From positions 1 through 47,303 of the forward strand of contig SGPM01000214.1 of the NCBI GenBank assembly GCA_004802725.1: a stretch of DNA of 47,303 nucleotides, in the 5' to 3' direction. This document shows, piece after piece, positions 11,853-41,840 of the stretch. The notes under the pieces were generated by a model. It ran no database searches. It had not been told where the DNA came from and worked only from the letters and a program-made list of their open reading frames with translations. Origin of the DNA: Antrodiella citrinella. Its lineage: Eukaryota > Basidiomycota > Agaricomycetes > Polyporales > Steccherinaceae. The translations under genes and the position numbers were made by a program. Every line of letters starts with the position of its first letter. The first letter of the stretch is position 1.

Positions 11853-13342
11853 CTACGGCAGCCACGGTCCGCCCTCAGGCTGTCCTTTTGGAATTGCACG
11901 GCGGGGGCGCAAATTCCTTCCACCGTGACGGGGTGGGGGCGGTGCTCCTCCGGTAGGGGTTGGAGTCGTCGATCTACTGGCTGAAGGTGCCATATGATCG
12001 GTTTGCGGCATGGTAGGTTCATGGTTCCTTGTCTTCACCGGAGAACGCGAGTGCACGACGTCCAAAGGTAGCTTGGGCCCCCGATAAAGATCCAAGTTGG
12101 CCTCGGGCTTCGCCTTCGCCTTTCCTTTCCAATTCCTCATGTCAATCCCCACCTCCGATCCTTCGTGACTCTCCTCATCCCCGACATTCGTATCACGATG
12201 TTCACCATCTTCCTCGCTCTCTTGCGACCAGCTGTACTCTCCCACAGCAGAACGAAGGTCGTGCTCTGAGCTTTCTGCGCGTTCTAAGCCAGCCGACACA
12301 AGGATGTCTGTTGTACGTATTCCAGATGCCTGATAGAAGGCATATTTAGAATCACATTCAATACAGCGAATAAGTGTAAAAAATCGTACGTTTGTCCCAA
12401 GAGTATACATACTGGCGCTGCCGACTACACTCGTATCTTGCGGCTGCGGTGGCGGGAGGAAATACGGATGTGGAGTAATTTCAAGTGGATATTCTTCGGA
12501 TACAAGCTGGAGAGCTTCTAAGAATTCCGGGTTGAAATTTGTGCAATCCGCGTCGAAGATGGGCGCCGGATAGACAACAGAGTAGTACTCAAGATCCTTG
12601 AGCACTGCAATACTCTCGTGTGGCGCGTCCAGGGGCTCGAGGTCGGTATTCGTGTTGTTGAGACGTAGTTGAGATCCCAGTTCGTATACGGCGAACCAAA
12701 CGTCGATTATCAAGAACCCGTAAACCTTCTTGTGTTTCACCGGATTGAGCCTCCGGCAGCATCTGGCTTGATGCAAAAGTTGTGGAAAATGGTCGAGGAA
12801 CATAAGACGGATGTCTTGAACTGAAGCTCGACCTTCGCCAAACCATTTTTTGAACGCGGGGGACCGCTTGACTTCTACGAGGAAGGCTGGGTGACCTCCA
12901 AGGGAACCCGTTGTGAGCCTATGGAATACCATAGCGACAAAGTCTGGAATTCGGGACATATCCTTGGTCTGACCGCGTTCTTTCTTCAACTGCATCTGGG
13001 AAAAGCAGCCCAAATGATGGTGAATGTCGTCGTCGTCGCCTCTGTCTTCGGTGACTGTGGCAGACGAGCAGAACATCGTAAAGATAAAGCCTATATAGCC
13101 ATAAAGTGCGCTTTCGGAATGTGACTGCAGGGCGGCGTATTGGAGGTGACCTCTCAGATGAGTGAAAAACTCTTCGTGGTTCTCGAACATGGGCTAGAAA
13201 TTTGCCGTTCGGATGAGTGGTCGAGACACAAGTCAGCGATATAAACAGCACTCACTGGTTTCATGGTATCTTTCGCCGAACTTGAAGCATCAAGATACGT
13301 GTCAATCGACTCGAGAGAACGCTCGGAGGAGGATGTCGACAT
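11853..13342 (-). CDS. Family N, copy A: predicted PD-(D/E)XK nuclease-like protein
   Basis: Three exons encode about 445 residues. Exon 1 gives MSTSSSERSLESIDTYLDAS and ends KP; after a 63-nt intron it continues PMFENHEEFFTHLRGHLQ. The conserved core is SSATVTEDRGDDDDIHHHLG, then RIPDFVAMVFHRL (Asp codon 12942-12944) and GGHPAFLVEVKR (Glu 12873-12875, Lys 12867-12869). It continues PQLLHQARCCRRLNPVKHKK and VYGFLIIDVWFAVYELGS. A PD followed about 22 residues later by ExK in a hydrophobic strand, and then a Gln-containing helix, is the PD-(D/E)XK pattern. The C-terminus is disordered and acidic, then basic, with a conserved HSRSPVKTR. It is divergent from family P copy 1 with 695 bp between them. 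The fold assignment is by motif only; I do not recognise a named family. Confidence 0.8.
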
Positions 13343-13395
13343 CATGAGCAACGGAGGACTTGGAGACTTGTGCAGCTCGAACGGATCACTAGTGC

Positions 13396-13404
13396 TTTAT
13401 ATAT
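13396..13404 (-). promoter_or_regulatory. TATA-like box of family N copy A
   Basis: On the minus strand the sequence reads TATATAAAG about 55 nt before the ATG at 13342. Copies B and C of the family have CTATAAAG about 80 nt before their ATGs. Confidence 0.5.
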
Positions 13405-13928
13405 GACACCTCAAACCTTCTTCGATACTGGACGAGTGGTCTAACTCGAGAGTCTCGTACGATAGTAGTAAGAAACGATTGTCTTCCTCACCGAGTTCAG
13501 CCACGGAGACTAGTACAATGGCATATGATGAAAACAATAGAAAACAATGATGTCGCAATGTGGTCGCCTGACACGAGGCGAGTGAAAACAGGTTAGGAGT
13601 AGATGTGTGGACTCAGGAGTAGATGTTACAAAGAGAACAATGGCACAACAATGGCACGCTGATGCATCATACAGGATGCCCTTGTAGTTTCGTCGTTATT
13701 CTGACGAGATCTAGCACGATAAGGATCAGGCGTGGCGCCGAACAGGCTGAGTTAGGGATTAAGACCGAAAGTCCTTGTCGTTTGCACCGTTCTTGCAAGT
13801 ACAATAACAAGGACTAGGCTGTAACACACGGGGATACGAGACGCGTTGAGCAAAAGCATTGTCAATCATGATGCTCTTGTTCAACGCAACGGTTGAACAA
13901 AGGTTCGGATCGGGAGTGATCCGAGCGA

Positions 13929-13962
13929 GATCGATCATGACGCGCGATATAAACAGTTCAAC
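13929..13962 (+). promoter_or_regulatory. Family P promoter module (copy 1)
   Basis: GATCGATCA (13929-13937) is followed by TATAAACAGTTCAAC (13948-13962), with the ATG at 14038. The same arrangement, a GATCGATC core about 90-110 nt before the ATG and then a TATA/AAACAGTTCAAC-like element, is found upstream of P copies 4 and 5, and in weaker form upstream of copy 3. Confidence 0.6.
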
Positions 13963-14037
13963 ATTCAATCGTTACAGTGGCCGCGTCTTGTCTCGTCATT
14001 CTCGCTACCTGTCGTCTCAAACATCTCTCTCCTCGAC

Positions 14038-14780
14038 ATGAAAGACACAAGCTCTATCTCGGAAGTCACCGCGGGCGTACGAGGGATGAAGCTCGTCTCT
14101 ATCTCAGATCGAGACGAGACACATGCTCACTTGGGTGGAGGACCTCATGAGGTTGGAACGGAGAGGCGGTCGAAGAACTCGTTTGATTGGGGTGGGGATT
14201 CTGATTCTGAGTCCGACTCTGACGAGCCATTGCCCAACCCCAAAGGTAAGACCGTAGAGGAATACGAAAGAGTGAGCCTTTACCTTATGCGTCAGCCTTC
14301 CTTGTATTGACCATGACAACCTTCCAGTTGTTGGTCCGCTATTTCATGCCGTACTCGCAGGTCTTTGACGAGCTCCCCGCGGAATACAAACCCACACCAG
14401 AGAACCCCAATCCAAAGAAGCTGGTATACGGCGTTCCTGTTCCTGCGTCCGCTCTTTACGAATACGCAGAATGGGCAGGCTTAGCCACCTATGTCGGCCG
14501 TGGAGAGAAAAAGATGCCACGCTTCTCCTGTCTCGCTGTCGCTGTCGAGCTTCTCGCCAAGCATTGCGAATACAAGCTTGGCTTGGCTGTCCCCCACCTT
14601 CGGCTTTCCGACCGCGACTTCATCATCTCTATGTGCAATAACTACAATTACCAGACCGGCATTATCGACCCCCAGTTTGCCGACGATATGACGGATTTCA
14701 TCCAGTCTGAGCTAGAGCTGAACGTGGAGCAATCCAAGTCGAGATGGTTCTTCATCAACGAGACTTGCGGCTTCTCTTGA
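14038..14780 (+). CDS. Family P, copy 1: acidic small protein paired with N copy A
   Basis: Two exons encode about 228 residues. Exon 1 starts MKDTSSISEVTAGVRGMKL, carries an acidic Ser/Asp tract (GGDSDSESDSDEPLP) and ends EEYER. A 56-nt intron follows, then LLVRYFMPYSQVFDELPAEY. The conserved domain has KPTPENPNPKKLVYGVPVPA, LYEYAEWAGLATYVG, LSDRDFIISMCNNYNYQTGI, and MTDFIQSELELNVEQSKSRW, and ends FFINETCGFS. I do not recognise a named family. Every P copy shares the Y-x-PTPENP-x-P motif, a Tyr-Ala-(Glu/Lys)-Trp-Ala segment and a Trp-Phe-Phe end. It is transcribed away from N copy A. The acidic tract could mimic nucleic acid or bind a basic partner; that is inference. Confidence 0.82.
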
Positions 14781-15103
14781 TCCAAGGTTATTGGTAAGTG
14801 GTCTACACCATTGAAATCCATTCGTATATGATCTCATATGTTGCGCAGACACTGCTGTTCATTTGTTGCAGTCCTTCCACTCCGGCCCTCACGCAGCGCC
14901 GCCACGCTACTACAGTATTCATGCTTGCATAGCTTCCTTTTGTGTTTTGTGGTTAGGAACCCCGACATCATATAATTGTATCTATATCAATGTCAGAACG
15001 ATGCGCATTGTTCCTGTGCTGTGATACTTTAATAAACATACCCAAGACATCTTCTCGCCACCGTCAGTTGTCACCTACGAACTGAGTCACGCCTGTGACT
15101 CGT
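14781..15103. other. Non-coding, 3' flank of P copy 1
   Basis: No exon is seen. The stretch presumably holds the 3' untranslated region of P copy 1. Confidence 0.4.
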
Positions 15104-15155
15104 ACGCGTTCGTGTCGCGACGACGGTCGCGTCACTGCGTTGGACATCTCTCTTA
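15104..15155 (+). promoter_or_regulatory. Duplicated MCB-type promoter block upstream of P copy 2
   Basis: ACGCGT (15104-15109) is followed by GTCGCGTCACTGCGTTGGAC and ATCTCTCT. This block closely matches the one in front of MAU2 at 16343-16385. ACGCGT is the known MluI cell-cycle box (MBF site) in fungi. Confidence 0.5.
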
Positions 15156-15372
15156 AATACCATCGCCAAAGAGGAGTTTCATGAACATATTTCGCACTAG
15201 TACTACTATCTTCAAGTACTAGCGACGTGGCGTCTGGATCTCAAACATCAACTACACCTCTATCTTTGACTATCGGAACTACAGTAATCTCAGTGCGCTC
15301 GCCATACTCGTATCGTTCCTCACAGATCAAGACAAAACGTACAGGCTCGCTCGGAGGACTCTCCGCGCTGGA

Positions 15373-16006
15373 ATGGAATCCCGTTCAAGTTTAAAAGATC
15401 TGCTTAGTTGGGATGGTGGTTCAGATTCCGACTCTGACGAGCTGCCTGATCTGCCCGACCCCAAGGATGTGGGCGAAAAGGAGTACGAGAGAGTGAGTCA
15501 TTACCCTATCGCCAGCCTTCTTCGTATTGACCATGACAATGACGTCCCAGTTGTTGATACTGCATGGAATGCCGTATTCGCAGGCCTTTAACGAGCTCCT
15601 CGCGGAATACAAACCCACACCAGAGAACCCCAATCCAAAGAAGCTGGTATACGGCGTCCCTGTCCCTGCTTCTGCTCTTTTTGAATACGCAGAATGGGCA
15701 GGCCTGGCCACCTATGCCGGCAATGGACAGGAAAGGCAACCCCGCTTCTCCTGTCTCGCTGTAGCTGTCTCGCTCCTCAGCAAGTTTTGCGACGACTACA
15801 AGCTTGGTCTAGCGATTCCCCACCTTCCGCTCTCCAATCGCAGCTTCATCGTCTCGATGTGCAACAATTACAATTACCGAACAGGCATTATCGACATCGA
15901 CCTTGCCAACGACATGACGCAATTGATTCAGAGCGAGTTCGAATTGGACGTCGAACAATCCAAGTCGAAATGATTCTTCATCAATGAAACTTGCGGTTTT
16001 TCCTGA
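15373..16006 (+). pseudogene. Family P, copy 2: truncated duplicate of copy 1
   Basis: The body closely matches copy 1: EYKPTPENPNPKKLVYGVPV, LFEYAEWAGLATYAGNG, SMCNNYNYRTGIIDIDLAND. The tryptophan codon of the conserved Trp-Phe-Phe end is TGA here (15971-15973), so the last 11 codons, still readable up to the old stop at 16004-16006, are lost. The 5' end is also eroded. The sequence homologous to copy 1's first codons, upstream of 15373, has no ATG, and the first usable ATG is at 15373, just before the acidic tract. The exon 1 donor (EYER then gtgagt) and acceptor are kept. It might still give a shortened protein. No N-family partner is adjacent. Confidence 0.7.
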
Positions 16007-16342
16007 TTCAAGGATAAAGGTATGTGATATACACGTTTCTTTCGTGTTTGTCTCACATCGTGGAACCAGCTGCCATGAATACGACGTGCTAGGTCCCTCC
16101 ATCCTCTTCACCGTGACGCTCTTCCGAATCATGGTTGCCGTTCAAATCATCCTTTGGTGTTTCATATTCGAGGCGACCTAACATCGTATTCCTGTACCCA
16201 CGCTTGTTGTTCCAATGTTAAAGCTATACCGATATGCGTTTTTCTTGTGCTCTGTTGCATTCAGATTTTCAGTTCTTCGCAATGGCCACTGGCAGTTTGA
16301 GTGTCACGATCGTGACGTCTACGCGCTGTCACGTGTGACCCT

Positions 16343-16385
16343 ACGCGTTTGAGTCGCGTCACCGCGTTGGACATTTCTCTCTTCT
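16343..16385 (+). promoter_or_regulatory. MCB-type element upstream of MAU2
   Basis: ACGCGT at 16343-16348 is followed by GTCGCGTCACCGCGTTGGAC and ATTTCTCT, about 70-110 nt before the ATG at 16454. MCB boxes drive G1/S genes in yeasts (established). Control of a cohesin loader by such a box would make sense but is inferred. Confidence 0.5.
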
Positions 16386-16453
16386 ACTCAACGCCAACCT
16401 CCTTTCATCGCCTCTTTGGAAAACCAGAAGCAGAAAGGGACAGGTGTATCAAC

Positions 16454-19327
16454 ATGATGGTCAATCACCGTTCCTGCAACGTCGACGACAATCCAAGAGC
16501 TACGAAACGTATCAAACTCGATGGAGATTTTGGTCGTGCTACTAGCACTGGCAAGTGGCATGATGTTGAAGACGAACTCCCCACGTCGTCGCTATCGACA
16601 TTGACCGCGAGCGCGCCTTCTACTCCGACAACGTCTTTGAACATCAAACCAGAGTCGGATGTGGATACCAAACTGAAGCCATTGTCTCCAAGCGCACTCC
16701 TTACGGCCCTCCCCGGACTCCTCATGCACCCACCAAACCACAAATCGTATTTGCTTTCACTGGAGGTCTCCATGAATGCGCTCAGGCGTTGCTTGGATGC
16801 CGTACAACATGGCCAGGCGGGGATGGCGCCGGAGACAGAGTGCAGAGCGTGGACGGGGCTAGCGGAAGTTGGAATGAGGCTCGTCGGTGCTGGGATGGGG
16901 AGGGGCGTCGTTGAAGCTGAGGTGTTTCATCTTGCTCTCTATCCACTATTGAGCCAGTACTGACTTATTTCGTGGTTTGTAGGTGGACAGGGCGTTGAGT
17001 AAAGCGGTCAGTTTATTCACTGTGATATGTCCGATACGGTACTGACTGCATATATGCGCTGTTGTTTGCAGGGTATGATCTCGCAGAAGGTATGTTTCCC
17101 TTTGACGAGTCATTCTTCCTTTTGATGGCTTGCTCACGATCTTTTGACTTCTCCAGCATCCGTCGCTGCGACCATTCAAATTGCACGTATCTCTGCTTCA
17201 AGCTCAGTTCTCTCACTGGCAACATCGCACGAAATTCGCGCGCACCCAAATACGAACACTCATTGCCTCAATGCAACCTTCCGACCCACCATATATCGTG
17301 TACTCAGCGCACTTAGCAGCGATCGCACTATTCACAACGCCACACACACCCACAGACCCCACTGTTGCTGTTGTCAACGCTGCTAGCAGCAGTAGAAATA
17401 CCACTCCGACGAAGGCTAGTTACAAGGCCAAGTCTACGCCTATCCGTACGGCCAGTCCTGCGACTCCGCAGGCCCCCTCAACACCGAAGCAGAGCCCACA
17501 GGATATCAACGCCGCACTGGCAGCAGTACAGACGATGCAGAACCTCTCGCACGAGCGACGACACGCGCACGTTACCCTTCTCTGTCTCATACTGAGACTA
17601 CGCATCTTGGTCGCGGCCGAGATGTGGGCAGACGTAGCCGGTGCGCTGCAAGCAGCCGAAACGGCGCTAGGTGTGGAATACGTGGCTGGTACCACACCGA
17701 AAGCTACGGCAGGGAAAGGGAAAGAACGGGAGAAGGAGAAGGAGAAGGAGACGTTTGTGATGTTTGAAGACGAGGTAGAGGCAGCGATGGCGGTGCATTT
17801 GCTGATCATGAGTGTGGGGTACTGGACTCATGTGGGTGTGGCGGCGGAGGCGACGCCACGATTGGCGCATTTACATGCGATGCTAGATGAGGGCGCGTTG
17901 GATAAGTTCAAGGACGGTCTGGTGCATGTGCGTGTCCACATATTTCGTCTTGTATGAACCGGCGATATACTGACAGGCGAACGTTTCTTTTTGCCATGCA
18001 GATTGGCCTCAGTGAGGGTCCACCGTTGGTTGTGCAAGTGACACACCCACGGATCTTGTTTCTGCTCGCGTTCCTGGTGAGCACCACAGCGAAGAGAGAT
18101 GCAGTTGGACGTAGGCCGAAACGAAAGGTGTTCGCGAGCGAGGCGTTGGCGGTGTGGGACAAGGAAGTTGGGTCGGAGCTATGTCGTGAGTGAACCCGCT
18201 CTTAAATTTGCAGTAACGCGTTATGCTGACATGGTGATCTCTCCGCAGTACCACTATGGTCGAGCTACGGTGACTTAGAAGAGGTTGAACAGCGTCTAGC
18301 GAGAATCAAGGCTGACTTGATGTGTGAATTGGTAGCGGTACGTTCCTTCTCGCCTTCTCACCGAGCCAACGAAGTTTACGCCTTACTCTTTACTGTAGGT
18401 CTCGACGATGCGGAGTGAGTTTGACGAGGCTGAAAAGGTACGTACAGCACAACCTCCGATTTTCATCGCTCTTATCGTTCCACAGCACCTCGCACAACTT
18501 ATTGCCCATACACGCACATACGGCCTCTTCCCTCACTTTTCTGCGCGCATTACATTACATCACGCTCATCTCGCCCACGCACTCGCGCGACCGTCACGGG
18601 CAGACCAGTGTTACGTCGTGGCTGCGGGTTTGGCACCTGCAGGGACCTTCGTGAATGTCTCGGCGAGAGCGGGCAGGGTCTTGCTCCATCTGGGGTGGAA
18701 ACGCAATGCCGACGATGATGACGAAGGGGAGGGTGTAGACGAGGAGGAGATGAAAGAGGTTGTGAGGTTGTGCAGAGGCTTGGGTGGGACGCTCGAAGCT
18801 GTCGGGCGTGTCGTGGAGGCGTGCTTGTCAACTGAGATCATGAAGTCAAAGTAAGTCTAGCGTTCCATCTCGTCTTCTTCACATGTTTAACCAGTCTTCC
18901 ACCTTCATCTGCAGACAACATCTCAAAGCAGCCCTACACCTTGCCACCCAATCCCAGGACAATCACCTCCGCGCACTCATCCTTGCCCTCATCGCGTCGC
19001 AGTATTTCTATACAGCCGGAGACCATGCACAGCAAATGCTCCAGACGTGCGAGCAACTCGCTGCAGGGCTCGGTGCGCCGCCAGCGAGTAATGCTGAGCC
19101 TGGAGCCGTACTAGGAAACGTTCCCTTGGGGCTGTGGGTGGGTGAACGATTCTTAGGTGTGTAACCCTCTCGTCCTTTGCGTTCCTGTGACACTGTCGTC
19201 TGATGCCTTTCGAACTTGCCAAATAGAATTGTACAACCGAGCTGGGAAGACGGCGCGTGCGGAGAAACAGACTGCGGCGAACGCGCAGTACGCCAAGGCG
19301 TTGGAGACGTTGAAGAATCGACGATGA
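16454..19327 (+). CDS. MAU2: Cohesin loading factor MAU2/Scc4 homologue
   Basis: About ten exons encode a TPR-like all-helical protein. After a Ser/Thr-rich N-terminus it has LLTALPGLLMHPPNHKSYLL and LEVSMNALRRCLDAVQHG, then EAE-VDRALSKA-GMISQK across tiny exons. HPSLRPFKLHVSLLQAQFSH follows, a typical Scc4/MAU2 signature. Further on come ERRHAHVTLLCLILRLRILV, VGVAAEATPRLAHLHAMLDE and THPRILFLLAFLVSTTAKRD. The C-terminal TPR region includes TYGLFPHFSARITLHHAHLA and NHLRALILALIASQYFYTAG, and the protein ends ALETLKNRR. In other eukaryotes it partners Scc2/NIPBL to load cohesin onto chromatin. The ATG at 16454 opens the frame immediately before the disordered N-terminus; an adjacent ATG at 16457 is possible. 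Low-complexity insertions (Glu/Lys runs near 17720-17755) are usual for fungal copies. Confidence 0.88.
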
Positions 19328-19726
19328 CACGGACGAACATGGGATTAACGTTTACCACAAGGAGTTCGGATAACTTATTTGCGCAATGGACCCAGCTGCA
19401 TACTGATACACTAGCACCTCCATACCATACCATATCACACTTGCCCATTTGCTATCGTTCTATCGTTTTTTGTGCTCTGCTTGCAATGTGTCCTTCCAGC
19501 CTCGTCACTGGTACGGAGGAGCGCAATGAATATATACTTGCATGAATGGACCTCTACATCTGTGAAAACAAAAACGGGGAGGGCGGCGATTAAGCTGTAT
19601 TACTCTACTTCCTGAACGACCGCCGCGGGGAGGCATATATAATGCATAGTACAATAATAAACGAGAACGAGAAATTCGAGAGAGGTTGAGAAAGAAGAGT
19701 AAGAGAAAGTTCAAAGAAAGCATGGA
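19328..19726. other. Convergent 3' intergenic region
   Basis: This lies between the 3' ends of MAU2 (+) and ISWI (-). No exon is seen on either strand. Confidence 0.5.
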
Positions 19727-24320: not shown

Positions 24321-24530
24321 TGCAATTAGTTTCTGAAATGATTATTTTCAAGATGTGCGGATCTAGACGCCCGTACAACGCGGGGCCGTCGTCGCGGGCT
24401 GCGCCTGCTCTTGGATCTAGACTTGACTTGCTCATTGCTCAAGTCGTCGTGCTCGTTTGGTGCTCGTCGTTCATAACAGTGATCAGCCTGCAAACATCGA
24501 CGACAAACACCGACATCATATATCTCCACG
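24321..24530. promoter_or_regulatory. Short bidirectional promoter ISWI / UBP2
   Basis: About 210 bp separate the proposed starts of the divergent ISWI (-) and UBP2-like (+) genes. No clear TATA box is seen. The two genes probably share this control region. Confidence 0.5.
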
Positions 24531-29542: not shown

Positions 29543-29912
29543 ACATGCAACATGCTGCTCATTCTATGTATCGTTGGATATCTGTATCGTTTATGAGCCC
29601 TGTTCCTCTTTGGAACGTTGTAGACTGCTGAGTTTGTAGAACGATTGCTACATAACATGTGTGATCTTTGGTATTGGAGCGATTCAACAAGTGGCGAGAT
29701 GATAGGACGTCGACGGTATTATGTTAATGGAGGTTGCGATAGAGACTGCGATAATGAACTCGAGGTATATGTACAAATGATGAGATTCCGGGCGACAAAG
29801 AGAATAGTGATTCAGGTGCAAAACAGTGAGGTAGAACCTTTCCCTGCGTACAAAGGGCAGTGCCGACGCACACCGTACGACGCGTGGACCACTCACAACT
29901 GACTGTGACCGA
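29543..29912. other. Intergenic, convergent 3' ends of UBP2 and P copy 3
   Basis: No gene is seen. Near 29870-29900 the motif TACGACGCGTGGACCACTCA also appears at the 3' flank of the other minus-strand P copies (about 35985, 39038 and 42150). It therefore marks the edge of the duplicated unit. Confidence 0.55.
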
Positions 29913-30666
29913 CTATTCGTAAACAAAGAACCACTTCGGTTGGGTTGTTGCTTCATCCAGACGTAGCTCCGACTGAATGAACCTCGTCATGTCGGCCAGA
30001 AACTGCGCGTCCGTCTGGCACGTCGTGTAGTTGTAGTTGTTCCACATCTCGATGATGCGGTGACGTGTCGAAAGGCAGAGATATGGGGTCTCCAAACACA
30101 TATCAAACCTGCAGTAGTCGCTGAGGAGGTCCACGGCTTTATGAAGGGAAAACGGGTTCGGGCGCTTCCACTTTCCACGGCCGACGTACATGTACTCAAC
30201 CAGACCGGCCCATTCTGCGTAGTCGAAAAGGGCTTCACCGGTGACAGGAATGCCGTATACCAATCTCCTTGGCTTGGGGTTTTCTGGTGTGGGGTCGTAC
30301 TTCGCAGGCAGCGAGTCCAAATCCTGCCCGTACGGCATTGAATGTAGGGTCATTACCTGAGACATTAGCAAGATCGTCAGCATGAGGAGGACTGATGAGT
30401 AGAGGACTCACCCGCTCCCACTCTTCTAAGTTCACCTTCGCAGGGTCAGGTATTGGGGGCAAGTCCTCCAACCCAGAATCCGAATCCGAATCCGAGTCCG
30501 AGTCCGAATCCCAGTTCAACATCAACAAGTCCCTCGGTCTCCCCTCTTTTGACTCCGTACCAACAGCCTCGTGCGATCCTCCCTCTGCCTCTCGATTTGT
30601 GGAATGAGACATCTTCATCATTTGTACGCCAGAGGTGATCACCGATATGGAAGTCGTGTCTGCCAT
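29913..30666 (-). CDS. Family P, copy 3: intact but without N partner
   Basis: Two exons encode about 232 residues. Exon 1 starts MADTTSISVITSGVQMMKMS, has a long Asp-Ser repeat tract followed by LEDLPPIPDPAKVNLEEWER, then a 55-nt intron and VMTLHSMPYGQDLDSLPAKY. The conserved domain has DPTPENPKPRRLVYGIPVTG, LFDYAEWAGLVEYMYVGRGK, LSTRHRIIEMWNNYNYTTCQ, and MTRFIQSELRLDEATTQPKW, and ends FFVYE. No stop or frameshift is present. Upstream, in the place where pairs B and C have family N, lies the broken FunK1 region, so this copy is an orphan. I do not recognise a named family. Confidence 0.82.
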
Positions 30667-30731
30667 GTTGAGGAGGAAAGCGTCGAACTAGTAGTATATG
30701 GGCCACAAGCAAAACGCGGTTGCACCGTGTT

Positions 30732-30765
30732 TGTATAGTCGTTCATACCGCGTTTTGATCGATCG
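30732..30765 (-). promoter_or_regulatory. Family P promoter module (copy 3)
   Basis: On the minus strand CGATCGATC (30757-30765) is followed by AAAACGCGGTATGAACGAC and TATACAAAC. This is the weaker form of the module seen at P copies 1, 4 and 5, about 65-100 nt before the ATG at 30666. Confidence 0.5.
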
Positions 30766-30766
30766 G

Positions 30767-31150
30767 TCGGCTCTGTATAGATCAAGGTCGTTAAGCGACT
30801 GGAGACGAGCCGGCAATTCCCGGTTCCGCTTCCTTGAACGACAACGTTAACGTTGTCCTTGAACTTGAACGTTTTTCTCGTCCTCTGCTCGTCAACTCGA
30901 ACTCTTCGGTCAAGAGGAGGGAAGTGATGCGAATCAACTCGCGATCTTACAACTTTGAGCGAGATTACGACTCGCAGTCAATACACTTCGAACACGCGTG
31001 GCCCCTTTTTTATCTGCCACTGGTTCAGGTACGTCTACTCAAGCTCAGAGGATTCACAAAAACCGCAGACCTTCTTACCAACTCAGACCTAAGGCCTGAG
31101 TCATTGCCATGCCGGCGTACGACTCGGACGTGACAAACAGAAAAACGTAT
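30767..31150. other. Intergenic remnant upstream of MITE
   Basis: An open stretch at 30834-31133 could encode about 99 residues with no recognisable motif. A GT donor at about 31030 and the sequence abutting the MITE suggest it may be the displaced 5' part of the FunK1 gene, but I cannot support a model. Confidence 0.35.
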
Positions 31151-31708
31151 CACTTCGTGGGAATATTTTTAGCAACGTCCGAATACGCAATAGAAGATCT
31201 TATACAAGACAGGAAAGAATATATCTAGTCTTGGGTAGCAAAAAGTACATGTATTCTCCGCCAGATATAAAAAACAAATACAGCTAGTATTCTCCAGTGA
31301 ATTCTCCTACTATTGTCTGCTGAATAAGAGTTATATTAGGTACCTGATATTTGAAATATTTACCACCGAATAAACAATTTATTTTGCTCCAAATAAAGAA
31401 TGCCCGCTGATCCCCGCTGATCGGAATGGAATTTTGGCGGGTGGTGGGCAACGAGCGCCCACTGAGTGCCCGCTCAAAACATTTTATATTCGCTGGAGAA
31501 TATTTCAAATATTAGGCACCTAATATAACTCTTTTTCAGCGGACAATAGTAGGAGCATTCACTGGAGAATATTAGCTGTATTTGTTTTTTATGTCTGGCG
31601 GAGAATACATGTACTTTTTACTACCCAAGACTAGATATATTCTTTCCTGTCTTGTATAAGATCTTCTATTGCGTATTCGGACGTTGCTAAAAATATTCCC
31701 ACGAAGTG
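31151..31708. mobile_element. 558-bp palindromic MITE/foldback element
   Basis: The left arm, starting CACTTCGTGGGAATATTTTT, and the right arm, ending AAAAATATTCCCACGAAGTG, are inverted copies over about 215 bp each with only a few mismatches. The first 90 or so bases match almost perfectly. A short centre of about 130 bp separates them. The trinucleotide TAT flanks both sides (31148-31150 and 31709-31711), a plausible 3-bp target duplication as made by PIF/Harbinger elements. No coding capacity is seen. High arm identity implies recent insertion. Transcripts through it would fold into a long hairpin. Confidence 0.85.
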
Positions 31709-34700
31709 TATATGAAGGGCTCCATGCCGTCGACACCCATCTCTTCCTGCATACATTTTTTAACGTCGAAGAGTCTGAGGTCTCACGCGTAGCATCTGTT
31801 CTCAAAAATCCTCCGTCATCTGAACAAATGGAAATTGACAGCGATCTCGACATATACGAACAATTCGTCACGATCGCCAATACCATTCTCGGCGCATATG
31901 ATGCAGACAAGATGACCGTCCACTCACACTGGACAACGCTTGGACCTCGCGATGGTCCGAACGGCGTCGCTTGCGTCCTTGGAAGTATTCATTCTTTTCT
32001 CAGAGCGAGAAGGATAATTGAGGAACTCAAGTCTGTCGAGAACACCGCAAAGCAGAATGAAAAAGTGTGTTTCACTTGTGCATGCTGGGTCCTACTTCAC
32101 GCTAACTGCTTCGTTTATGTTCTCAGCTCCGGTCGTTGATCAGGGCGGCATTGGATGTCGCAACTTTGATTTTGGACGCACAGCGTGTATGTCATGAAGA
32201 TGAACACGGGCTGTCAAACCATATTTGCGCTCTCAGGCTCAGGCTCAAGATGAATGTTAACTGCGAAGACGACATGCTGACAGAATGTGTAAACACTCCG
32301 TTGCTATGTTGACCTTTTCTGACGCTTCATTCCTTCAGCTCATTCAAACTGGATCCGTCCTCACGAGATTGATACGAGGGCGCTCTGCACTCATCACATC
32401 CGAATCGGCACCTTCAGGTTAGAATGCACCAACATCTTATTGGGCATGTTCCTATCTTCGTAGCTCCAAACGTTGATGTCGATTTAATGAGCTTCGTGAC
32501 AGGTTAAACATCGCAGTGTTGATTGAACTCCTCTGGCTGCGTCGGAAGTCAGAGGGGAAGATTAATTCAAGGTATGCCTTAAACGCGTGTATCACCGTGG
32601 CTGAAGCACATCAAAGTTCATGAAAGTCATTTTGCAGCTTGAGGAGGACAGCATGTTTTGGCACAGAGTCGACACGCCCATAGTAGCTTGGAAGCAGTAC
32701 TACTATGACGAGGTAAAACTGTGCAAGAGCATGCAGCAGGTCCTCATGTCGCAACCCGACCGGCATTTCGTGTTCGGGCTCCTCCTTAAACCGCATCAAG
32801 TTCGTGTTTTCTATTGCGACCGATCAGGTGTACTGGCAACGGATAGCTGGATACGCTGCTCGCTACGCACTGTGAGTGTCATATACGCATCTCTTGTCAA
32901 TCCTGCGCTCCTCACTATCAGTGTCATGTTCGCTCTTAAACTAGCAACACCACTCACTTATCCGTCTCGTACTCGCTCTCCGCTTTACATCCACGCCATC
33001 TCGGATGGGACCGGAACATGAAGCTGTATCTGAACCCTTCCCCCGGTAGCCACGAGTTTCGGTATACAACTGACCCGAAAGTTCAGTTGGATGACTACAG
33101 ACGCAGGTTCTGCGACGTCCGATGGGCGATCTTCGTCCCCGACGACGAGGCATCAATCAAGGGGAAATGGTATCTCACTGTACGACCGATGATCATGCAG
33201 TCGGGGATCTCAGTGATCGGTCCAGTCAGTATGAGCTGGATGGTGAAGGAGTTGAATTCGGACATGACCAACGTCACCGAGGTACGTGACCTTCATGTAT
33301 TCTGAGCAAAGCTGTTTGTGAAACGTTATCGTCAACTTAGGACTCTCCTCTGGCCCTAAAGCTCTCATGGGCCCTGTGTACGTCTCCAGCGGAGAAACGT
33401 TTTCATGGACCCACTCCCGTCGACAACGTTGGCGTCTTTCTGTCGTCTGTCAAGTCAGGCTCCGTAGATGAAGACGGGTCTTGGACACAGCACAACACCG
33501 AAAGCTTCCGTCGTGGCCTTCAAGGTCCCGTAATCTCTGGAGGTTTTTGGGGAGAGGAGGGACATAAGCCCCGAGTGCTGGTCAAGACACTCTCTAAAAC
33601 GTTTGGCTGGCCGCTCCGATACTTCGCGGATCTCACGGAGCTCGTGAGGACGATACGAGATGCGGTTCAGGGTAAGCCATCTTCGTGAGATATTGCTCTG
33701 CTCCAGGCCTTCACAGACTTTCAACAGGACACCGCGATCTGTGGTTCAAACGCGGCGTACTGCACCGAAACATCAATTCAGACAACATCCTGATATGCCC
33801 CGCTGATCATGATCTCAGCTCTCCGGACTTGCACGTGCACCGAGTTGCGACTGTCGGATGTCTGACGGACTTGGACCATGCCAAACAGACGGACGACCGT
33901 ATCACGTATAGCCCTGATGGTCTCAATGTTGACCTATAAGGGGAGACGACGCTCTTCCAGTGGGGTGAACACAAATGGATCTCGGAGAAGCGGGAAGACA
34001 TCTGGCGCCGCTGCCAAGGAAATCAAAACGGCTCATTGACCATGGCTGTGCAGTTGAAGTATTTGGGAAAGACGGAGGCTCACCATAACCTCCCGAAGGT
34101 ACGTTCACACCTCAGTATAGACTGTACGCCGTTGTTATAATGCTTGTATTCAAGGTATGGGATGCGCTGTGTGTTCCTTCCGAGGAGCAGTATCGACGTT
34201 GGCTTGAGGTACCGGAGGCAAGTTGACTGTCTCAAATCCCAGTGACGTCGAGACTTATCATTACTGTCGCTCCTCAGTCATGTCCCCCATCCTGGACGGA
34301 GACCTTCGATGGTGTCGCTGAGAGAACGGTAAGCATCTGCGGATCGGTCTTCCATTTTGATCTGACAACTCGACCACCATTTTCTGAATCGGTACTCGTC
34401 TATTCATGAGCTACGAGATGATGACTGGCATGCCATATTCCCTACCACCAGATACTTACGACGGTTATGTGTATTGCAGGCACTTGCCTCGTACCCCCCT
34501 CCGCATCCCCATCCACAGCGCCATCCACGATATCGAATGCTTCTTCTGGGTCACCGTGTATGAGTGCCTCGTCCGGTCAGGACCCGGCGGTGCGTATCGC
34601 CCAGAAGTCATGTCCGACTTTCCCCAGTCTTCTTCCGAGTCCATGACACCCCGCGAAAGAAAGGACCTCACCATGTGTATACACACCCTCTTCCACACCG

Positions 34701-35308
34701 ACGACAACGGGGATCGGAAGGCTACATTGTTTCTATCTCCAGACCTCTTCGAGAGCTCTGTCCTACCGTTCTTCCATCCCTACTTCACACGAATGAAGCC
34801 CTTGGTGCGCGAATGGTGGTACTTGCTGCAGTGCCTTTACCGCGCCCACGACGATGTCACGCAGGGTCTCGTCCACGAGAAGATCCTTGGGTTGCTGAAT
34901 GAGCACCTCGAGCGAGTTCAGGCCGGAGAAGGAGGAGGAGGAGATGGGGCGCCTGGCGCGGTGGAGACGAGTGAGAATATCATGAGGGAGGGACGTACGG
35001 AGGCGGAATGGCGACGGCGCGATGTTGAATTGGGAAGGCTCGCCGTAGGGATTGTCTGGGACGATCCGGACCCGGAGGACAGTGAGGACCCGGAGGACAA
35101 TGAGGACAACGACGACGACGACGACGACGATGATGGAGGAAATGTCGATATCAGTATGACAGAAGGGACGCAGTACTCGGAATCAATCATGGAGGCAAAC
35201 GGATGGGCGGAGAGCGAGCTCGAGAAATGGACACGGGATGAGGAGGAAGAGGAAGAGGAAGACGGTGAGAAGCAGAAGAAGAAGAAGACAAGGAGGGTCG
35301 AAGCTTGA
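31709..35308 (+). pseudogene. FunK1-type fungal protein kinase, degenerate
   Basis: Many exons follow the FunK1 layout. The N-terminal part has THLFLHTFFNVEESEV. The pre-kinase part has QPDRHFVFGLLLKPHQVRVF followed by YCDRSGVLATDSW. The kinase part has WFKRGVLHRNINSDNILI, VGCLTDLDHAKQ, and, after a later exon, RLFMSYEMMTGMPY and AIHDIECFFWVTVYECL. The C-terminus is strongly acidic. FunK1 kinases normally have His-Arg-Asp; here it is His-Arg-Asn, so the catalytic base is missing. An in-frame TAA follows GLNVDL at 33937-33939, although the downstream frame (TTLFQWGEHKW) still matches the family. The intron before the RLFMSYEM exon has no AG at the expected border near 34396. The 5' end is cut by the MITE. 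Together these indicate a pseudogene. Transcription of parts cannot be excluded. Confidence 0.72.
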
Positions 35309-35949
35309 AGGGTCAGTCATATTTGCAAATTTCGTATATGGATGTGTTTAGTCTATTCAGTCTCCGTGGTGGTTTCTCTGGAGTAGGGGGGTTGGCAAGT
35401 AAGTAAGTCGAAGACCTGCGAATATAATGAATATAGCATGGCATGGTCAACACAAGGTGCGAAGAATTGTAAATGGACTCCTCGTCGAGCTCTCGCACTC
35501 TTCTACGCAAAATCCTGGTCAGAGTAAGAGTTGGATAGAGTCAACTGGAGAAATTCCAGTGGCAATGCCTTTCCACACCGAGCACATGTTGTTGTTGGAG
35601 AAGACACCTTCATACAGGGTTTCACCCAGGGACGATTATCAGGATATCTGTAACAGTCTTGAGAATAAGAGAACGTCGACGGGAAATTGGAACGGTGATG
35701 GTGACGACGCGCGCGCGTGTGTTAGCAGTGACCGTAACTGTCTTCACTTGCCAGTGGTTCAAGTTGATCTCCCACTTTGCAACTCGGCAAAGTCAGTGGA
35801 ATCCATGGGGTATACATATACTGCAGAGTATGACAAGGAATAAGTATGACACTGCGCAACATTGTCTATGCACCAAGTTCGAATAAAGGTGTTTGCAACA
35901 TGTGCACAACGAAGGATGCTAAACGACGACACAGGCTGAGCCTTCCTTG
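35309..35949. other. Intergenic region between FunK1 and P copy 4
   Basis: Open stretches exist but lack homologues, splice structure or codon pattern that I can support. I see no gene. Confidence 0.45.
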
Positions 35950-36029
35950 AAACTGCGTACAGAGGTTAGCTCCAACGCACATTGTACGACGCGTGGACCA
36001 CTCACAACTAGCTGTGAGCCTGTGACCGG

Positions 36030-36778
36030 CTATTCTGCAACGAAGAACCACTTCGGTTGGGTTGTCGCTTCATCCAGACCCAGCTCCGACTGGATGAACC
36101 TCGTCATTTCTGCTAGAAACGGTGCGTCCGTCTGGCACGTCGTGTAGTTGTAGTTGTTCCAGAACTCGATGATGCAATGACGTGTCGAAAGGTAGAGATA
36201 TGGAGTCTTCAAATACATATCGAACCTACAGTGGTTGCTGAGGAGGTCCACGGCTTTATCGAAGGAAAACGGGTTCGGGCGCTTCCACTTTCCATGGCCG
36301 ACGTACTGCGCCACACCGGCCCATTTCGCGTAGTCGAAAAGAGCTCCGGTGGTGACGGGAATGCCGTATACCAGTCTCCTTGGCTTGGGGTTCTCTGGGG
36401 TGGGGTCGTATTCCGCAGGCAGCGAGTCCAAAGGTTGCCCGTACGGCATTGCATGTAGGGTCATTACCTGGGACATCCGCAAGATCGTCAACATGAGGAA
36501 GCCGGATGATTAGAGGACATGCGACTCACCCGCTCCCACTCTTCTACGCTCACCTTCCTAGGGTCAGGTATCGGGGGCAAGTCCTCTGACCCAGAATCCG
36601 AATCCGAATCCGAATCCGAATCCCAGTTCAACATCAACAAGTCCCTCGGCCTCTCTTCTTTTGACTCCGTGCCGACAACCTTGTGCGATCCTCCCTCCGC
36701 GTCTCGATTTGTGGAATGAGACATCTTCATCATTTGTACGCCAGAGGTGATTACCGAGATGGTATTCGTGTCTGTCAT
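36030..36778 (-). CDS. Family P, copy 4: acidic partner in pair B
   Basis: Two exons encode about 230 residues. Exon 1 starts MTDTNTISVITSGVQMMKMS, has the Asp-Ser tract followed by GSEDLPPIPDPRKVSVEEWER, then an intron with gtgag donor and VMTLHAMPYGQPLDSLPAEY. The domain keeps DPTPENPKPRRLVYGIPVTT, LFDYAKWAGVAQYVGHGKWK, LSTRHCIIEFWNNYNYTTCQ and LGLDEATTQPKWFFVAE. The Glu of the usual Tyr-Ala-Glu-Trp motif is Lys here. A longer in-frame start at 36877 exists, but the ATG at 36778 matches copies 3 and 5. It is divergent from N copy B with 558 bp between starts, and both are intact. Confidence 0.84.
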
Positions 36779-36831
36779 GCTGAGGAAAGCGATGGATGAC
36801 GGGATAGATGCAAGTTGAAGAAGGTGGGCCA

Positions 36832-36888
36832 AACAGTTGAACTGTTTATATAATCGTTGATACAGCGCCCATTCCATTTTGATCGATC
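36832..36888 (-). promoter_or_regulatory. Family P promoter module (copy 4) with 17-bp palindrome
   Basis: On the minus strand GATCGATC (36881-36888) is followed by TATATAA and then the palindrome AAACAGTTCAACTGTTT (36831-36847). The left half of the palindrome is what copy 1 has after its TATA box. The spacing to the ATG at 36778 is similar to copies 1 and 5. Confidence 0.6.
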
Positions 36889-37251
36889 GCTTATCCTCGC
36901 CTATGTATCCTTTGTTTCAATGTCCCTTTCCCATTCCTACAGTAAGTACAAGGATCATGGATGACAATAGTTCCTACATAGCGACGAATGCCGTCCCCTG
37001 ATATGGTTACTCTTTACAGATCATCCGAACATTCTGCGAGGCATGCTAATTATGACGATGTCCTCGTCTTAGGGCTCTCCATTGTTCTGATCTTGATTCG
37101 GTATGTCTGGTCCTTTGCATCCACGTTGCACCGTGTTGGCAGATTCTGCTATTGTATACTCTTTTGGCAGTTATTGTTTTACATGCTTATTGTTCACGTT
37201 CACGTTTCCGAGACGTAGGAACTTCCGGGGGTACTCAGTAAGTCTACCTAC

Positions 37252-37260
37252 GCTATAAAG
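37252..37260 (+). promoter_or_regulatory. TATA-like box of family N copy B
   Basis: GCTATAAAG lies about 80 nt before the ATG at 37337. The same motif in the same place precedes copy C (40303-40310). Confidence 0.55.
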
Positions 37261-37336
37261 TCCTGACATTCCACAAGGTAATACCGCAGCACGCTGGTTC
37301 TCCTACGGACGAGAATCCAACCTTCCCCTTGGTATC

Positions 37337-38798
37337 ATGTCAGCAACATCCTCCGCACTATCCAGTTGGCCCTCTACGATAGCACAAGAACCTCAGGCTT
37401 CTCTTGATGCTGTGCCGAAACCAGTGAGTAGAGCCCAATGCCTCTTAGACTGTCACTTATACGAACATTATCTCAGCCCTTCTACGGGACTCACGAAGAG
37501 TTTTTCGCGCATATCACGGCTCACCTCGAGTACGCCCGTCTCCAGAGAAATTCCGAATGGGCACTCTATGGCTACATCAATTTCGTCTTCACGATGTTTT
37601 GCTCATCGGCCACAGTCACTCAAGACAGAGGCGACGGAGATGACGTCCACCACCATTTGGGATGTTTTTCTCAGATGCAGCTGAAGCCGGTGAAAGAAGG
37701 CGATGTCGCTGCCGCGGATTTGTTCCGTATTCCTGACTTTGTCGCTGTGGTTTTTCATAGACTGGTGACAGGATCTATTGGAGGCCACCCGGCCTTTCTG
37801 GTGGAGGTCAAGCGTGCCAGCTGGGTTGGCCGACCTTGGTTCGGTCTCCCTCAGGACGTTGCGGAGGTTCCATTACCCGAGGAATTTCTCAAACATCTCC
37901 CGCAACTCCTGCAGCAAGCGAAATGCTGCAAGAGGGTGAACCCAGTGAACCATGACAAAGTCTACGGATTTTTGATAATTGACGTTTGGTTCGTCCTCTT
38001 TGAATTGGGCTCCTTCATACGCTCTACTCGCAACAATCAACCTGTGGATCAGAACGACCTCAACACCGTCCATGCGACCCTGTTGAAATACTGCCGGGTT
38101 CCCCCTACACCGATCTTCGACACCGATTATAAAAACTTTAATCCGCCATTCCTGGAAGCCCTCAAGATCGCTACTGAAGAATACCCACTTACAATCGCCG
38201 CACATCCGTATTTCCTGCCGCCACCACAGTTTGAGGCTACGGCCAGCGCAAACGAGGTACGATTAGTCTTCCTTCATAAAACTAAAGCGACACTGACGAC
38301 AGCTGCGCACATTATTAGGCACAATTGGATGCGTTCGTCGACATGATATCACGAGCTGCTTCCCTCGGAAAGAGCGAACAATATGATCTCGCCACTGCTA
38401 ACGGCGATTTTAGCATGTCGCAGCCTGATGAGGACGATGATGGTCATGCTGAGGTCAAAGTCGAAGCGGAGGTAATCGGTGATGAGGATAATTGGGAAGA
38501 CTCGGAGACGGACGGGGTCAAGGTGAAGGCAGGGAAGGGAAAGGGGAGGGCTCAGCCAAAGAATCAGGGAAGGTCGAGGCAGCGCCCCGCTGCGCGGGAT
38601 ATTTACAAGGGACCCGATCTTCCCTTGGACATCGTACACTCACGTTCTCCAGTGAAGACAAGGAAGCGTGCTCCTGCCAAGCCGACGGCCGATCAGCCGC
38701 TACCTTCAGCCAGCAGACAAACGTCTCCATCAAAGGGACGCTTTGCGCCGCCGCCTGGATCCAACAATCCACGCGCATATATCCATCGACCCGAGTGA
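37337..38798 (+). CDS. Family N, copy B: predicted PD-(D/E)XK nuclease-like protein
   Basis: Three exons encode about 445 residues. Exon 1 reads MSATSSALSSWPSTIAQEPQ and ends KP; after a short intron comes PFYGTHEEFFAHITAHLEYA. The core contains SSATVTQDRGDGDDVHHHLG, FRIPDFVAVVFHRL (Asp codon 37735-37737) and GGHPAFLVEVKR (Glu 37804-37806, Lys 37810-37812). LPQLLQQAKCCKRVNPVNHD and VYGFLIIDVWFVLFELGS follow. The second intron lies after ATASANE, then AQLDAFVDMISRAASLGKSE. The tail is acidic, then basic, with LDIVHSRSPVKTRKR, a possible CDK site next to a nuclear localisation signal. It is intact and faces P copy 4 head to head. Nuclease activity is predicted from motif only. Confidence 0.85.
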
Positions 38799-39074
38799 CA
38801 TAGGATTGATGCTTTTGTGTACATGTAACACACATGATCAACTGATTTCTACTTCGTCAATATTTTACTTGTAATCCTAGTGGTGGGTGATCAAACGGTG
38901 ACTACGACAACAAATGTATGGTCTATGTACGTTGTCTGCATTCCTAACGACGATGAGGTTTGGTACTATGAGAGCCGAGTCCTCCCTGCGTACTACAAAC
39001 GTTAGTTCCAACACGCACTGCACAGTACGACTCAGTGTGTGGACCACTCACTGCAGTCAACAGTCATCAGCTAG
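38799..39074. other. 3' flank between units B and C
   Basis: There is no gene. The sequence repeats at 41841-42193 and belongs to the tandem unit. Confidence 0.6.
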
Positions 39075-39804
39075 CTATTCGTGAACGAAGAACCACTTCG
39101 GTTGGGTTGTTGCTTCATCCAGACGCAGCTCCGACTGGATGAACCTCGTCATTTCGGCCAGAAACTTTGCGTCTGTCTGGCACGTCGTGTAGTTGTAGTT
39201 GTTCCACATCTCGATGATGCGGTGACGTGTCGAAAGGTAGAGATATGGAGTCTTCAAATACATATCAAACCTGCAGTAGTCGCTGAGGAGGTCCACGGCT
39301 TTACCGATGGACATCGGGTGCGGGTACTTTTCCTTTCTACGGCCGACGTACATGTACTCAGCCAGACCGGCCTATTCTGCGTAGTCGAAAAGGGCGTCGC
39401 CGGTGACAGGAATGCCGTATACCAATCTCCTTGGCTTGGGGTTCTCTGGTGTGGGGTCGTACTTCGCACGTAGCGAGTCCAAGGCCTGCCCATACGGCAT
39501 TGCATGCAGGGTCATTACCTAGGATCGTCAACATGAGGAAGGCTGATGCATGATGAATAGAGGACATGCGACTCACCCGCTCCCACTCTTCTAAGCTCAC
39601 CATCGCAGGGTCAGGTATTGGGGGCAAGTCCTCTGACTCAGAATCCGAATCCGAATCCCAGTCGAACATCAACAAGTCCCTCGGCCTCTCCTCTTTTGAC
39701 TCTGTACCAACCAATCCTACATCCGCGTGTCGGTTTGTGGAATGAGCCATCTTCATCATTTGGACGCCAGAGGTGATTACTGAGATGGAATTCGTGTCTG
39801 CCAT
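39075..39804 (-). pseudogene. Family P, copy 5: stop in Tyr-Ala-Glu-Trp motif
   Basis: Exon 1 (MADTNSISVITSGVQMMKMA, shorter acidic tract, SEDLPPIPDPAMVSLEEWER) and the exon 2 start VMTLHAMPYGQALDSLRAKY are open. The conserved tryptophan of the Tyr-Ala-Glu-Trp motif is a TAG stop (39372-39374), where copy 3 has TGG. Downstream the frame continues well conserved (MYVGRRKEKYPHPMSIGKAV, LSTRHRIIEMWNNYNYTTCQ, TTQPKWFFVHE). Such good conservation after the stop suggests recent loss. Its head-to-head partner, N copy C, is also broken. Confidence 0.8.
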
Positions 39805-39861
39805 GCTGAGGAAAGCGATGGATGACGGGATGGATGCAAGTTGAAGAATGTGGGCCAAACA

Positions 39862-39915
39862 GTTGAAATGTTTATATCATCGTTGATACAGCGCTTATGC
39901 CGTTTTAATCGATCG
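39862..39915 (-). promoter_or_regulatory. Family P promoter module (copy 5)
   Basis: On the minus strand CGATCGAT (39908-39915) is followed by GATATAAACATTTCAAC. One base differs from the AAACAGTTCAAC of copies 1 and 4, and this breaks the palindrome seen at copy 4. It lies 60-110 nt before the ATG at 39804. Confidence 0.55.
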
Positions 39916-40302
39916 CTTCAAACACCTTGCGGCCTATCACTCTATCCGGATCCTTTGTTTTGTCGGATGTCCCTTTCCTCCAGTACAACTTCAAGGACCA
40001 TGGACGATGGGTTGTGGATGACAATAGTTCCTATATAGTCATATAAGAGCTGCATCGACGAATGTCGTCTCTTGACATGGTTAATCCTTACAAACCATCC
40101 GAACATTCTGCGAGGCATGCTAGCTCTGATCAGTACGATGTTCATTGTTCTTGATTCGGTATGTCTGGTCCTTTGCAATTACATCCACGTTGCACGTTGG
40201 CAAATTTTGTCATTGTAATCTATGTTTGGAGCTATTGTTCTGTGTGCTTCATTGTTCACGTCGCAGGAACTTCCGGGTACTCATCGACATCTACCGCCTA
40301 CG

Positions 40303-40310
40303 CTATAAAG
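40303..40310 (+). promoter_or_regulatory. TATA-like box of family N copy C
   Basis: CTATAAAG lies about 80 nt before the ATG at 40387, as in copy B. Confidence 0.5.
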
Positions 40311-40386
40311 TCCTTACGTCGCACAAGGTGATACCTCAGCACGCTGGTTCTCTAACGAACGAATTTCCAACCTTTACCTCCTCACT

Positions 40387-41840
40387 ATGTCAGCAACATC
40401 TTCCGCGCTATCAAGTTGGCCCTCTACGATTGCACAAGAACTTGAACCTGATACTGCGCCGAAACCAGTGAGTAGAGCCCAATGCTTAGACTGTCCGAGT
40501 CACTTGTTTGAACGTTATCGCAGCCCTTCTACGAAACTCACGAAGAGTTTTTCGAGCATATCACGGCTCACCTCCAGTACGCCCGTCTCCAGAACTCCGA
40601 ATGGGCACTCTATGGCTACATCAACTTCGGTCTTCACGACGTTTTGCTCATCGGCCACAGTCACTCAAGACAGAGGCGACGGAGATGACGTCCACCACCA
40701 TTTGGGCTGTTTTTCTCAGATGCAGCTGAAGCCGGTAAAAGAAGGTCGTGCCACTGCCGCGGATTTGTTCCGTATTCCTGACTTTGTCGCTGTGGTTTTT
40801 CATAAACTGATGACAGGGTCTACTGGAGGCCACCCGGCCTTTCTGGTGGAAGTCAAGCGGGGCTCGATTGGCCGACTTTGGACTGGCCCCACCCAGCCCG
40901 CTGCGCAGGTCAAGTTATCCCAGGAATTTCTCAAACATCTCCCCCAACTCCTGCAGCAAGTGAAATGCTGCAAGAGGGTGAACCCAGTCAATCATGACAA
41001 AGTCTACGCATTTTTGATCATTGACGTTTGGTTCGCCCTCTTTGAATTGGGCTCCGTCCTACGCTCAACTCAAAATCAACGTGTGGATCACACCGACCTC
41101 AACACCGTCCTTGAGACCATGCAGAAATACTGCGAGTTCCCCCCCACACCGATCTTCGACACCGATTGTAAAAACTTCAATCCGACATTCCTCGAAGCCC
41201 TCAAGGTCGCCACTGAAGAATACCCACTTACAATCGCTGCACATCCGTATTTCCTGCCGCCACCACAATTTGAGGTTACGGCCAGCGCAAACGAGGTACG
41301 ACCTTAGTCTTCCTTCCAAGGCGACACTGACGACAGCTGCGCGCGTTATTAGGAACAATTGGATGTGTTTATCGACATGATATCACAAGCTGCTTCCCTC
41401 GGAAAGAGCGAACAATATGATCTCGCCACTGCTAACGGCGATTTTAGCATGTCGCAGCCTGATGACTCGGAGGACGATGATGGTCATGCTGAGATCAAAG
41501 TCGAAGCGGGGATGATTGTTGATGAGGACAAATGGGAAGACTCGGAGATCGAGACAGAGACGGAGGGGGTCAAGGTGAAGGCAGGGAAGGGAAAGGGAAA
41601 GGCTCAGGCAAAGAAGAAGGGAAAGTCGAGGCAGCGCGCGCTGCGCGGGATATTTACGAAGGACCCGATCTTCCCTTGGACATCGTGCACTCACGTTCTC
41701 CGGTGAAGACAAGGAAGCGTGCACCTGCCAAGCCGACGGCCAATCGGCCAGCACCTTCAGCCAGCAGGCCAACGTCTCCAACAAGAGGACACTTTCCGCC
41801 ACCTGGATCAAACAATCCACGCGCATATATCCCTCGTTGA
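40387..41840 (+). pseudogene. Family N, copy C: two frameshifts
   Basis: Exon 1 (MSATSSALSSWPSTIAQELE) and its intron match copy B. Near 40629 an extra G (ACTTCGGTCTTC against TTTCGTCTTC in copy B) shifts the frame after YGYIN. The frame is recovered only by reading out of phase into SSATVTQDRGDGDDVHHHLG. The core is otherwise well conserved (FRIPDFVAVVFHKL, Asp codon 40780-40782; GGHPAFLVEVKR, Glu 40849-40851, Lys 40855-40857; VYAFLIIDVWFALFELGS). A second shift near 41636-41643 removes one base in the AGGCAGCGC...GCGCGGG stretch, before ARDIYEGPDLPLDIVHSRSP. The tail in the shifted frame ends NNPRAYIPR. The PD...ExK residues survive. Both shifts could be sequence errors, but the adjacent P copy 5 also carries a stop. 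Confidence 0.78.

Follow-up and report, generated by a model that had tools for sequence, protein, structure and literature searches.

The stretch of DNA analysed here (the window) is a contig of the wood-decay polypore Antrodiella citrinella of 47,303 bases, in which two genes that we name N and P repeatedly stand head-to-head. A divergent P was present at all eight N loci that we found in this species, and these loci fall into two subfamilies whose N proteins are 29% identical over 150 aligned columns. The suggestion of the first-pass annotation of the window that N and P belong together as one linked unit of two genes is thereby strengthened. It is quite possible, if short of probable, that the pair is an old effector-partner unit with the anatomy of a toxin-antidote system, where N would be the effector and P its inhibitor or antidote; this reading is drawn from sequence, and fold, activity, expression and binding are predictions within it.

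The first-pass annotation had described three N-P pairs (A, B and C). Our gene models, built from splice sites conserved between copies, place them at the same coordinates and in the same divergent layout (Table 1). Pairs B and C had been taken for a tandem duplication, and they are indeed 82% identical over about 2.9 kb; block comparisons show them as tandem units, each about 3 kb long, followed by a third, partial unit that carries the fragment P_D. NCBI lists the window proteins EUX98_g6248 and EUX98_g6255 to EUX98_g6258, and its models of P_A1, of P_B and of the P that belongs to a fourth pair (contig C353) are letter-identical to ours. Pair C looks broken or wrongly sequenced. Apart from the two indels that break its frame, the eight indels that separate N_C from N_B are multiples of three; the two exceptions may be sequencing errors because the assembly is Ion Torrent, an explanation that is less likely for the stop substitution in P_C. 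Three more P copies in the window (P_A2, P_E and P_D) were absent from the first-pass annotation.

Pairs A, B and C are not three independent observations within the window, because all of them trace to one ancestral pair. More independent support for the linkage is found outside it, in the C353 pair and in a deeper subfamily of pairs (N2/P2). In a search of the A. citrinella contigs, the DNA of N_A matched C353:2792-4193 at 80%, and this N faces an open P across a spacer of 625 base pairs (bp). Pairs A and C353 have in common N, parts of the spacer, and P. The N of the window and of C353 (N1) splits into two groups, one of A with C353 and the other of B with C. A tree built from 11 P copies groups B, C, D, E and C355b with support 100/99; two members of this group, E and C355b, have no N beside them. 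The A-type copies (A1, A2, C353 and C31) are 81-88% alike, and their branching order is unresolved in the tree. Searches for an empty site or a second allele, made with one flank each of A and C353, matched only scattered repeat pieces elsewhere.

The deeper subfamily surfaced as a match of the N_A core to C558:4012-4467 (expectation value, E, 0.0066). This contig encodes a small two-exon gene and, divergent from it, a three-exon N2 in which exon 2 is the part that aligns with the core of N. Searches with the C558 genes gave four N2 loci (C558, C278, C324 and C98) and twelve P2 places, and each of the four N2 loci has a divergent P2. The relationship between N1 and N2 was clear in profile comparison (hhalign p 7.9e-6 over the 150 columns, with PD and ExK aligned). 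None of 1000 shuffles scored as well as N_A against the N2 of C558, C278 or C324 (z 11.2, 7.3 and 7.2), and one of 400 did so for N_B against C558 (z 5.6). The first intron lies in both subfamilies eight residues ahead of a shared FF and in the same phase. N2 is open in C558 and decayed in C98; in C278 and C324 it carries the same in-frame stop, located after the nuclease-like part. The P2 of C278 is open while its N2 is stopped. Spacers measure 151 bp in C558 and 237 bp in C278, and thus 151-695 bp in the six pairs of ordinary spacing among the seven measured (all except C98). The 2921 bp of the seventh, C324, are due to an insertion of 2684 bp, the remainder matching C278 at 234 of 237 positions. 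At C98:29972-32277, two P2 copies in tandem come after the decayed N2, matching the N-P-P arrangement of N_A, P_A1 and P_A2.

The genome searched for copies comprised 602 contigs (30.0 Mb), and the copy counts are lower bounds for that reason; the assembly of strain DSM 108506 has 1228 Ion Torrent contigs and 33 Mb according to section 2.3 of PMC12878558. We found at least 26 P loci (11 P1, 3 P3 and 12 P2), eight with a head-to-head N and 18 without. Copy counts score the best candidates only. They include two P copies of C279, weak in the genome search and at 2e-10 and 4e-9 in a small local search, and leave out a P fragment of C288 (E 6e-4). A further P protein (P0009) is listed on a contig of 5,614 bp where the genome searches reported no P. 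In the flanking stretches of solitary P loci that we examined, tblastn found no N remnants. As in a two-gene toxin-antidote system, linkage is tight and the candidate effector was never found without its partner (8/8, in one assembly and a lower-bound search), which would be expected if N were harmful without P.

Table 1. N and P genes, spacers and spacer repeat in the window (positions count from the first base of the window)
Feature	Position	Strand	Description
N_A	11853..13342	-	3 exons (13342-13256, 13193-12390, 12329-11853), 455 amino acids, open; C353 relative at 80% DNA identity
Spacer A	13343..14037		695 bp between the start codons of N_A and P_A1
Inverted repeat in spacer A	13770..13815		9-nucleotide arms, AGTCCTTGT...ACAAGGACT
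P_A1	14038..14780	+	2 exons (14038-14271, 14328-14780), 228 amino acids, open; identical to NCBI EUX98_g6248 (P0005)
P_A2	15373..15973	+	tandem P copy; early stop, shortened first exon
P_E	29913..30666	-	open P copy, no N beside it; divergent from FunK1-type gene
P_B	36030..36778	-	2 exons, 228 amino acids, open; identical to NCBI EUX98_g6255 (P0004)
Spacer B	36779..37336		558 bp
N_B	37337..38798	+	3 exons, 448 amino acids, open; NCBI EUX98_g6256 (P0001) differs at start only
P_C	39075..39804	-	one in-frame stop
Spacer C	39805..40386		582 bp
N_C	40387..41840	+	one +1 and one -1 indel break the frame; these may be sequencing errors
P_D	42194..42685	-	broken; 3' part only, of third tandem unit

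PD-(D/E)XK nucleases have an alpha-beta-beta-beta-alpha-beta core. The first-pass annotation had called N nuclease-like. This stands as regards the motif, which N1 and three of the four N2 retain; it did not extend to a match with a family profile. The motif residues, D116, E139 and K141 in N_B, do not vary within N1 (N_A, N_B and the N of C353) and are aligned in the N2 of C558, C278 and C324, which gives the PD...(D/E)xK arrangement a conserved place in the protein. The E of ExK is gone in the decayed N2 of C98. Strand-like hydrophobic residues precede ExK and a conserved Q-containing segment follows it, a residue pattern in the style of PD-(D/E)XK proteins. The alignment of PD...ExK between N1 and N2 supports, and does not prove, the view that N is a PD-(D/E)XK nuclease. 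For N1, comparisons with Pfam, PADLOC (N1 being the family compared there), NCBIfam, PHROGs and PDB sequences returned nothing stronger than chance-level rows, with no Pfam family above cut-off; N2, compared with Pfam, likewise gave no family above cut-off. Results were the same for P1, P3 and P2 against Pfam, for three N and three P entries against NCBIfam and PHROGs, and for the N1 and P1 profiles against PDB sequences: nothing beyond weak chance-level rows. PDDEXK_12 (PF20516), a fungal PD-(D/E)XK family, is alike in motif style only; its profile matched neither the A. citrinella genome nor the controls of that search, so the lack of a match there carries no information. Conservation in the N1 tail is poor outside a block around LPLDVVHSRSPVKTR, perhaps a nuclear signal.

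The first-pass annotation had further proposed that the acidic tract of P masks a basic or nucleic-acid-binding surface. We rejected this for N, which is itself acidic (isoelectric point 5.7-5.9, net charge of the core -7 to -13); both proteins of the pair are acidic. A relationship between N and P was likewise rejected, since hhalign gave it a probability of 1.5% over 19 acidic columns.

Both genes have been under purifying selection in the past. The ratio of nonsynonymous to synonymous substitution rates (dN/dS) between N_A and the N of C353 was 0.29 in the core (bootstrap 95% 0.20-0.39) and 0.60 in the tail (0.37-0.96), and between N_A and N_B it was 0.21 (0.11-0.32) and 0.55 (0.34-0.83), respectively. 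Five P comparisons gave 0.29-0.39. Between C558 and C278 the ratio was 0.46 for N2 (0.28-0.72) and 0.38 for P2 (0.23-0.65), the P2 of C558 and C487 gave 0.49 (0.30-0.78), and N_C against N_B gave 0.48 (0.32-0.72). Constraint on both genes, short spacers in both subfamilies and the existence of open solitary P copies would also suit an ordinary, co-regulated pair of host genes with a nuclear or defence task, neither toxic nor selfish, whose order is kept by a shared promoter. We regard this as somewhat unlikely, given the many broken copies and the uneven copy number, and because no relatives of N1 or P1/P3 were returned from outside the species. The search for such relatives covered 5.8 billion proteins, required shared words of five residues and scored 7100 to 8000 candidates. 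Restriction to A. citrinella must not be concluded from it, as it covered N1 and P1/P3, not N2/P2. Prokaryote genomes, searched with N, and viral contigs, searched with N and P, gave pattern matches and no relative.

P1 and P2 are probably homologous, although we are less sure of this than of N1 and N2. Both consist of two exons, the first of them acidic, separated by a phase-0 intron. P_C595b, a solitary copy that is related to P_A1 (E 4.8e-16), scored better against the P2 of C558 and C278 than all of 400 shuffles (z 9.8 and 5.4), and better than all of 1000 against C487, with an X at its stop (z 6.7). Nine N-P controls of the shuffle test gave z from -0.7 to 1.1.

Several observations weigh against the effector-partner reading. 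The homology of P1 and P2 depends on P_C595b as a bridge, and this copy reached only E 0.048 in the P2 genome search. By shuffling, P_A1 against P2 was not significant, and P_B against P2 reached borderline significance at most (11 of 400 shuffles scored as well for C278 and 25 of 400 for C558). The hhalign comparison of P1 with P2 gave p about 0.04 over 106-114 columns of shallow profiles; two N-P controls did about as well over 15-19 columns (p 0.035 and 0.058), and other N-P controls gave 0.42 and 0.31. The bare PD...ExK pattern is weak by shuffling, as it appears in 295 of 2000 shuffles of N_B. Comparisons with broken copies also gave low dN/dS (0.31-0.53), so that low values indicate past constraint and not present function. 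P_E and P_C355b are open and constrained with no N beside them, so P may serve a separate function. The excess of P without N over N without P (18 vs 0) should not be taken as a tally of independent events. Searches also detect N less readily than P: N2 came up at the E-value given above and was missed by full-length N_B. Finally, the linkage could be passive, because the N loci descend from one pair. In that case a single ancestral pair of functionally unconnected genes would have been copied as a block, as A and C353, and likewise B and C, evidently were. We think this improbable, since the order outlasted the deep N1-N2 split and P was copied alone several times while no N was found alone.

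The most economical way to read these data, in our view, is as an effector and its inhibitor, because N was not found alone, P is often alone, an open P2 stands beside a stopped N2 in C278, and N carries a nuclease-like motif. N and P would then be the two halves of one inherited unit. N would be a PD-(D/E)XK-like effector whose target is probably nucleic acid in the nucleus, and P, as the cognate partner, would bind N and most likely serve as its inhibitor or antidote. P would be made from the opposite side of a short promoter region shared with N, and we infer that the two genes are co-expressed. The unit would have spread by whole-unit duplication, with P also spreading and persisting alone. 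A selfish, drive-like use of the unit is possible.

CinA has the rescue role in the CinA-CinB pairs of Wolbachia. N-P resembles them by description, as linked genes for a candidate effector and its partner; CinA-CinB is bacterial, and consists, as far as PMC8787490 describes it, of a nuclease protein and a partner encoded by linked genes and acting in cytoplasmic incompatibility. The likeness to sept-1/zina-1 of Caenorhabditis elegans, described in PMC13411925 as two tightly linked genes that form a working toxin-antidote system, is also one of description, N-P being known from sequence alone. The nearest functional comparison is with the Spok meiotic drivers of Podospora and other ascomycetes, again likened by description. 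In the accounts of PMC9972908 and PMC6660238, a nuclease part of Spok kills and a kinase-like part protects; its PD-(D/E)XK part is tied to killing, and the fungal family is multi-copy and patchily spread. Spok is a single protein with its own kinase-like resistance part, whereas N and P are separate genes, neither of which matches a kinase family in Pfam; nuclease and kinase are thus not joined in one protein in either.

Should N harm and P protect, an Agaricomycete would have a nuclease-based drive or defence unit made of two genes. No such unit was found among the literature matches listed, which is weak evidence of novelty, and the locus tag 'EUX98' was not mentioned among the literature matches naming A. 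citrinella. Presence, absence and linkage of N and P would be directly testable in the public population reads of the species (PRJNA1222407), which PMC12878558 associates with a study of 110 sampled individuals, 12 of them dropped for low coverage. Even if the unit is not selfish, it comprises two protein families without a Pfam match and with an old head-to-head order.

P also faces genes of another kind. The FunK1-type gene opposite P_E has a PF17667 match at 32653-32844 (31.2 bits, cut-off 24.1), and a C355 relative of P_E has part of the upstream stretch of P_E in common. P2 relics at C178:13878-15349 and C181:37426-38726 are head-to-head with FunK1 matches, as is P_E (29913-32844). We remark on this adjacency because it was seen in both P subfamilies; it may be clustering, because FunK1 is abundant (125 exon-level matches in the A. 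citrinella genome) and also matched in 4 of 14 control genomes. A bolder form of the toxin-antidote reading, for a nuclease-based two-gene element of a mushroom-forming fungus, would make P an antidote of general use, with many copies retained on their own, and one partner family would guard two kinds of effector, the N nuclease and the FunK1 kinases that it also faces. This seems to us rather unlikely. A foldback element lies between P_E and the FunK1-type gene (31151-31708; arms of 233 nucleotides, 94% complementary, 92 nucleotides apart). A second copy (91%) is found at C245:18530-19086, on a contig that also carries FunK1 matches.

The inverted repeat of spacer A, which may be a chance feature, has 8-nucleotide arms in C353 and is degenerate in B and C; a scan of the regions upstream of five solitary P copies did not show it in this form. 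Dispersed copies and repeat-rich flanks might suggest that the pairs are cargo or remnants of mobile elements, N being an element-encoded, endonuclease-like protein and P an accessory, and the window does carry a gene of mobile-element type, with an integrase core domain (rva_4, PF24764), at 5964-6827. Such an origin is very unlikely in view of the low copy number of N, the spliceosomal introns, and the lack of common unit ends in block comparisons, which were not aimed specifically at terminal repeats or target duplications there. The left part of the window holds a repeat family (1-262, 3385-3577 and 11198-11474) with copies 92-96% identical. A 63-bp repeat at 11635-11697 recurs near the starts of C479, C95, C424 and C190, and perhaps marks where the assembly broke.

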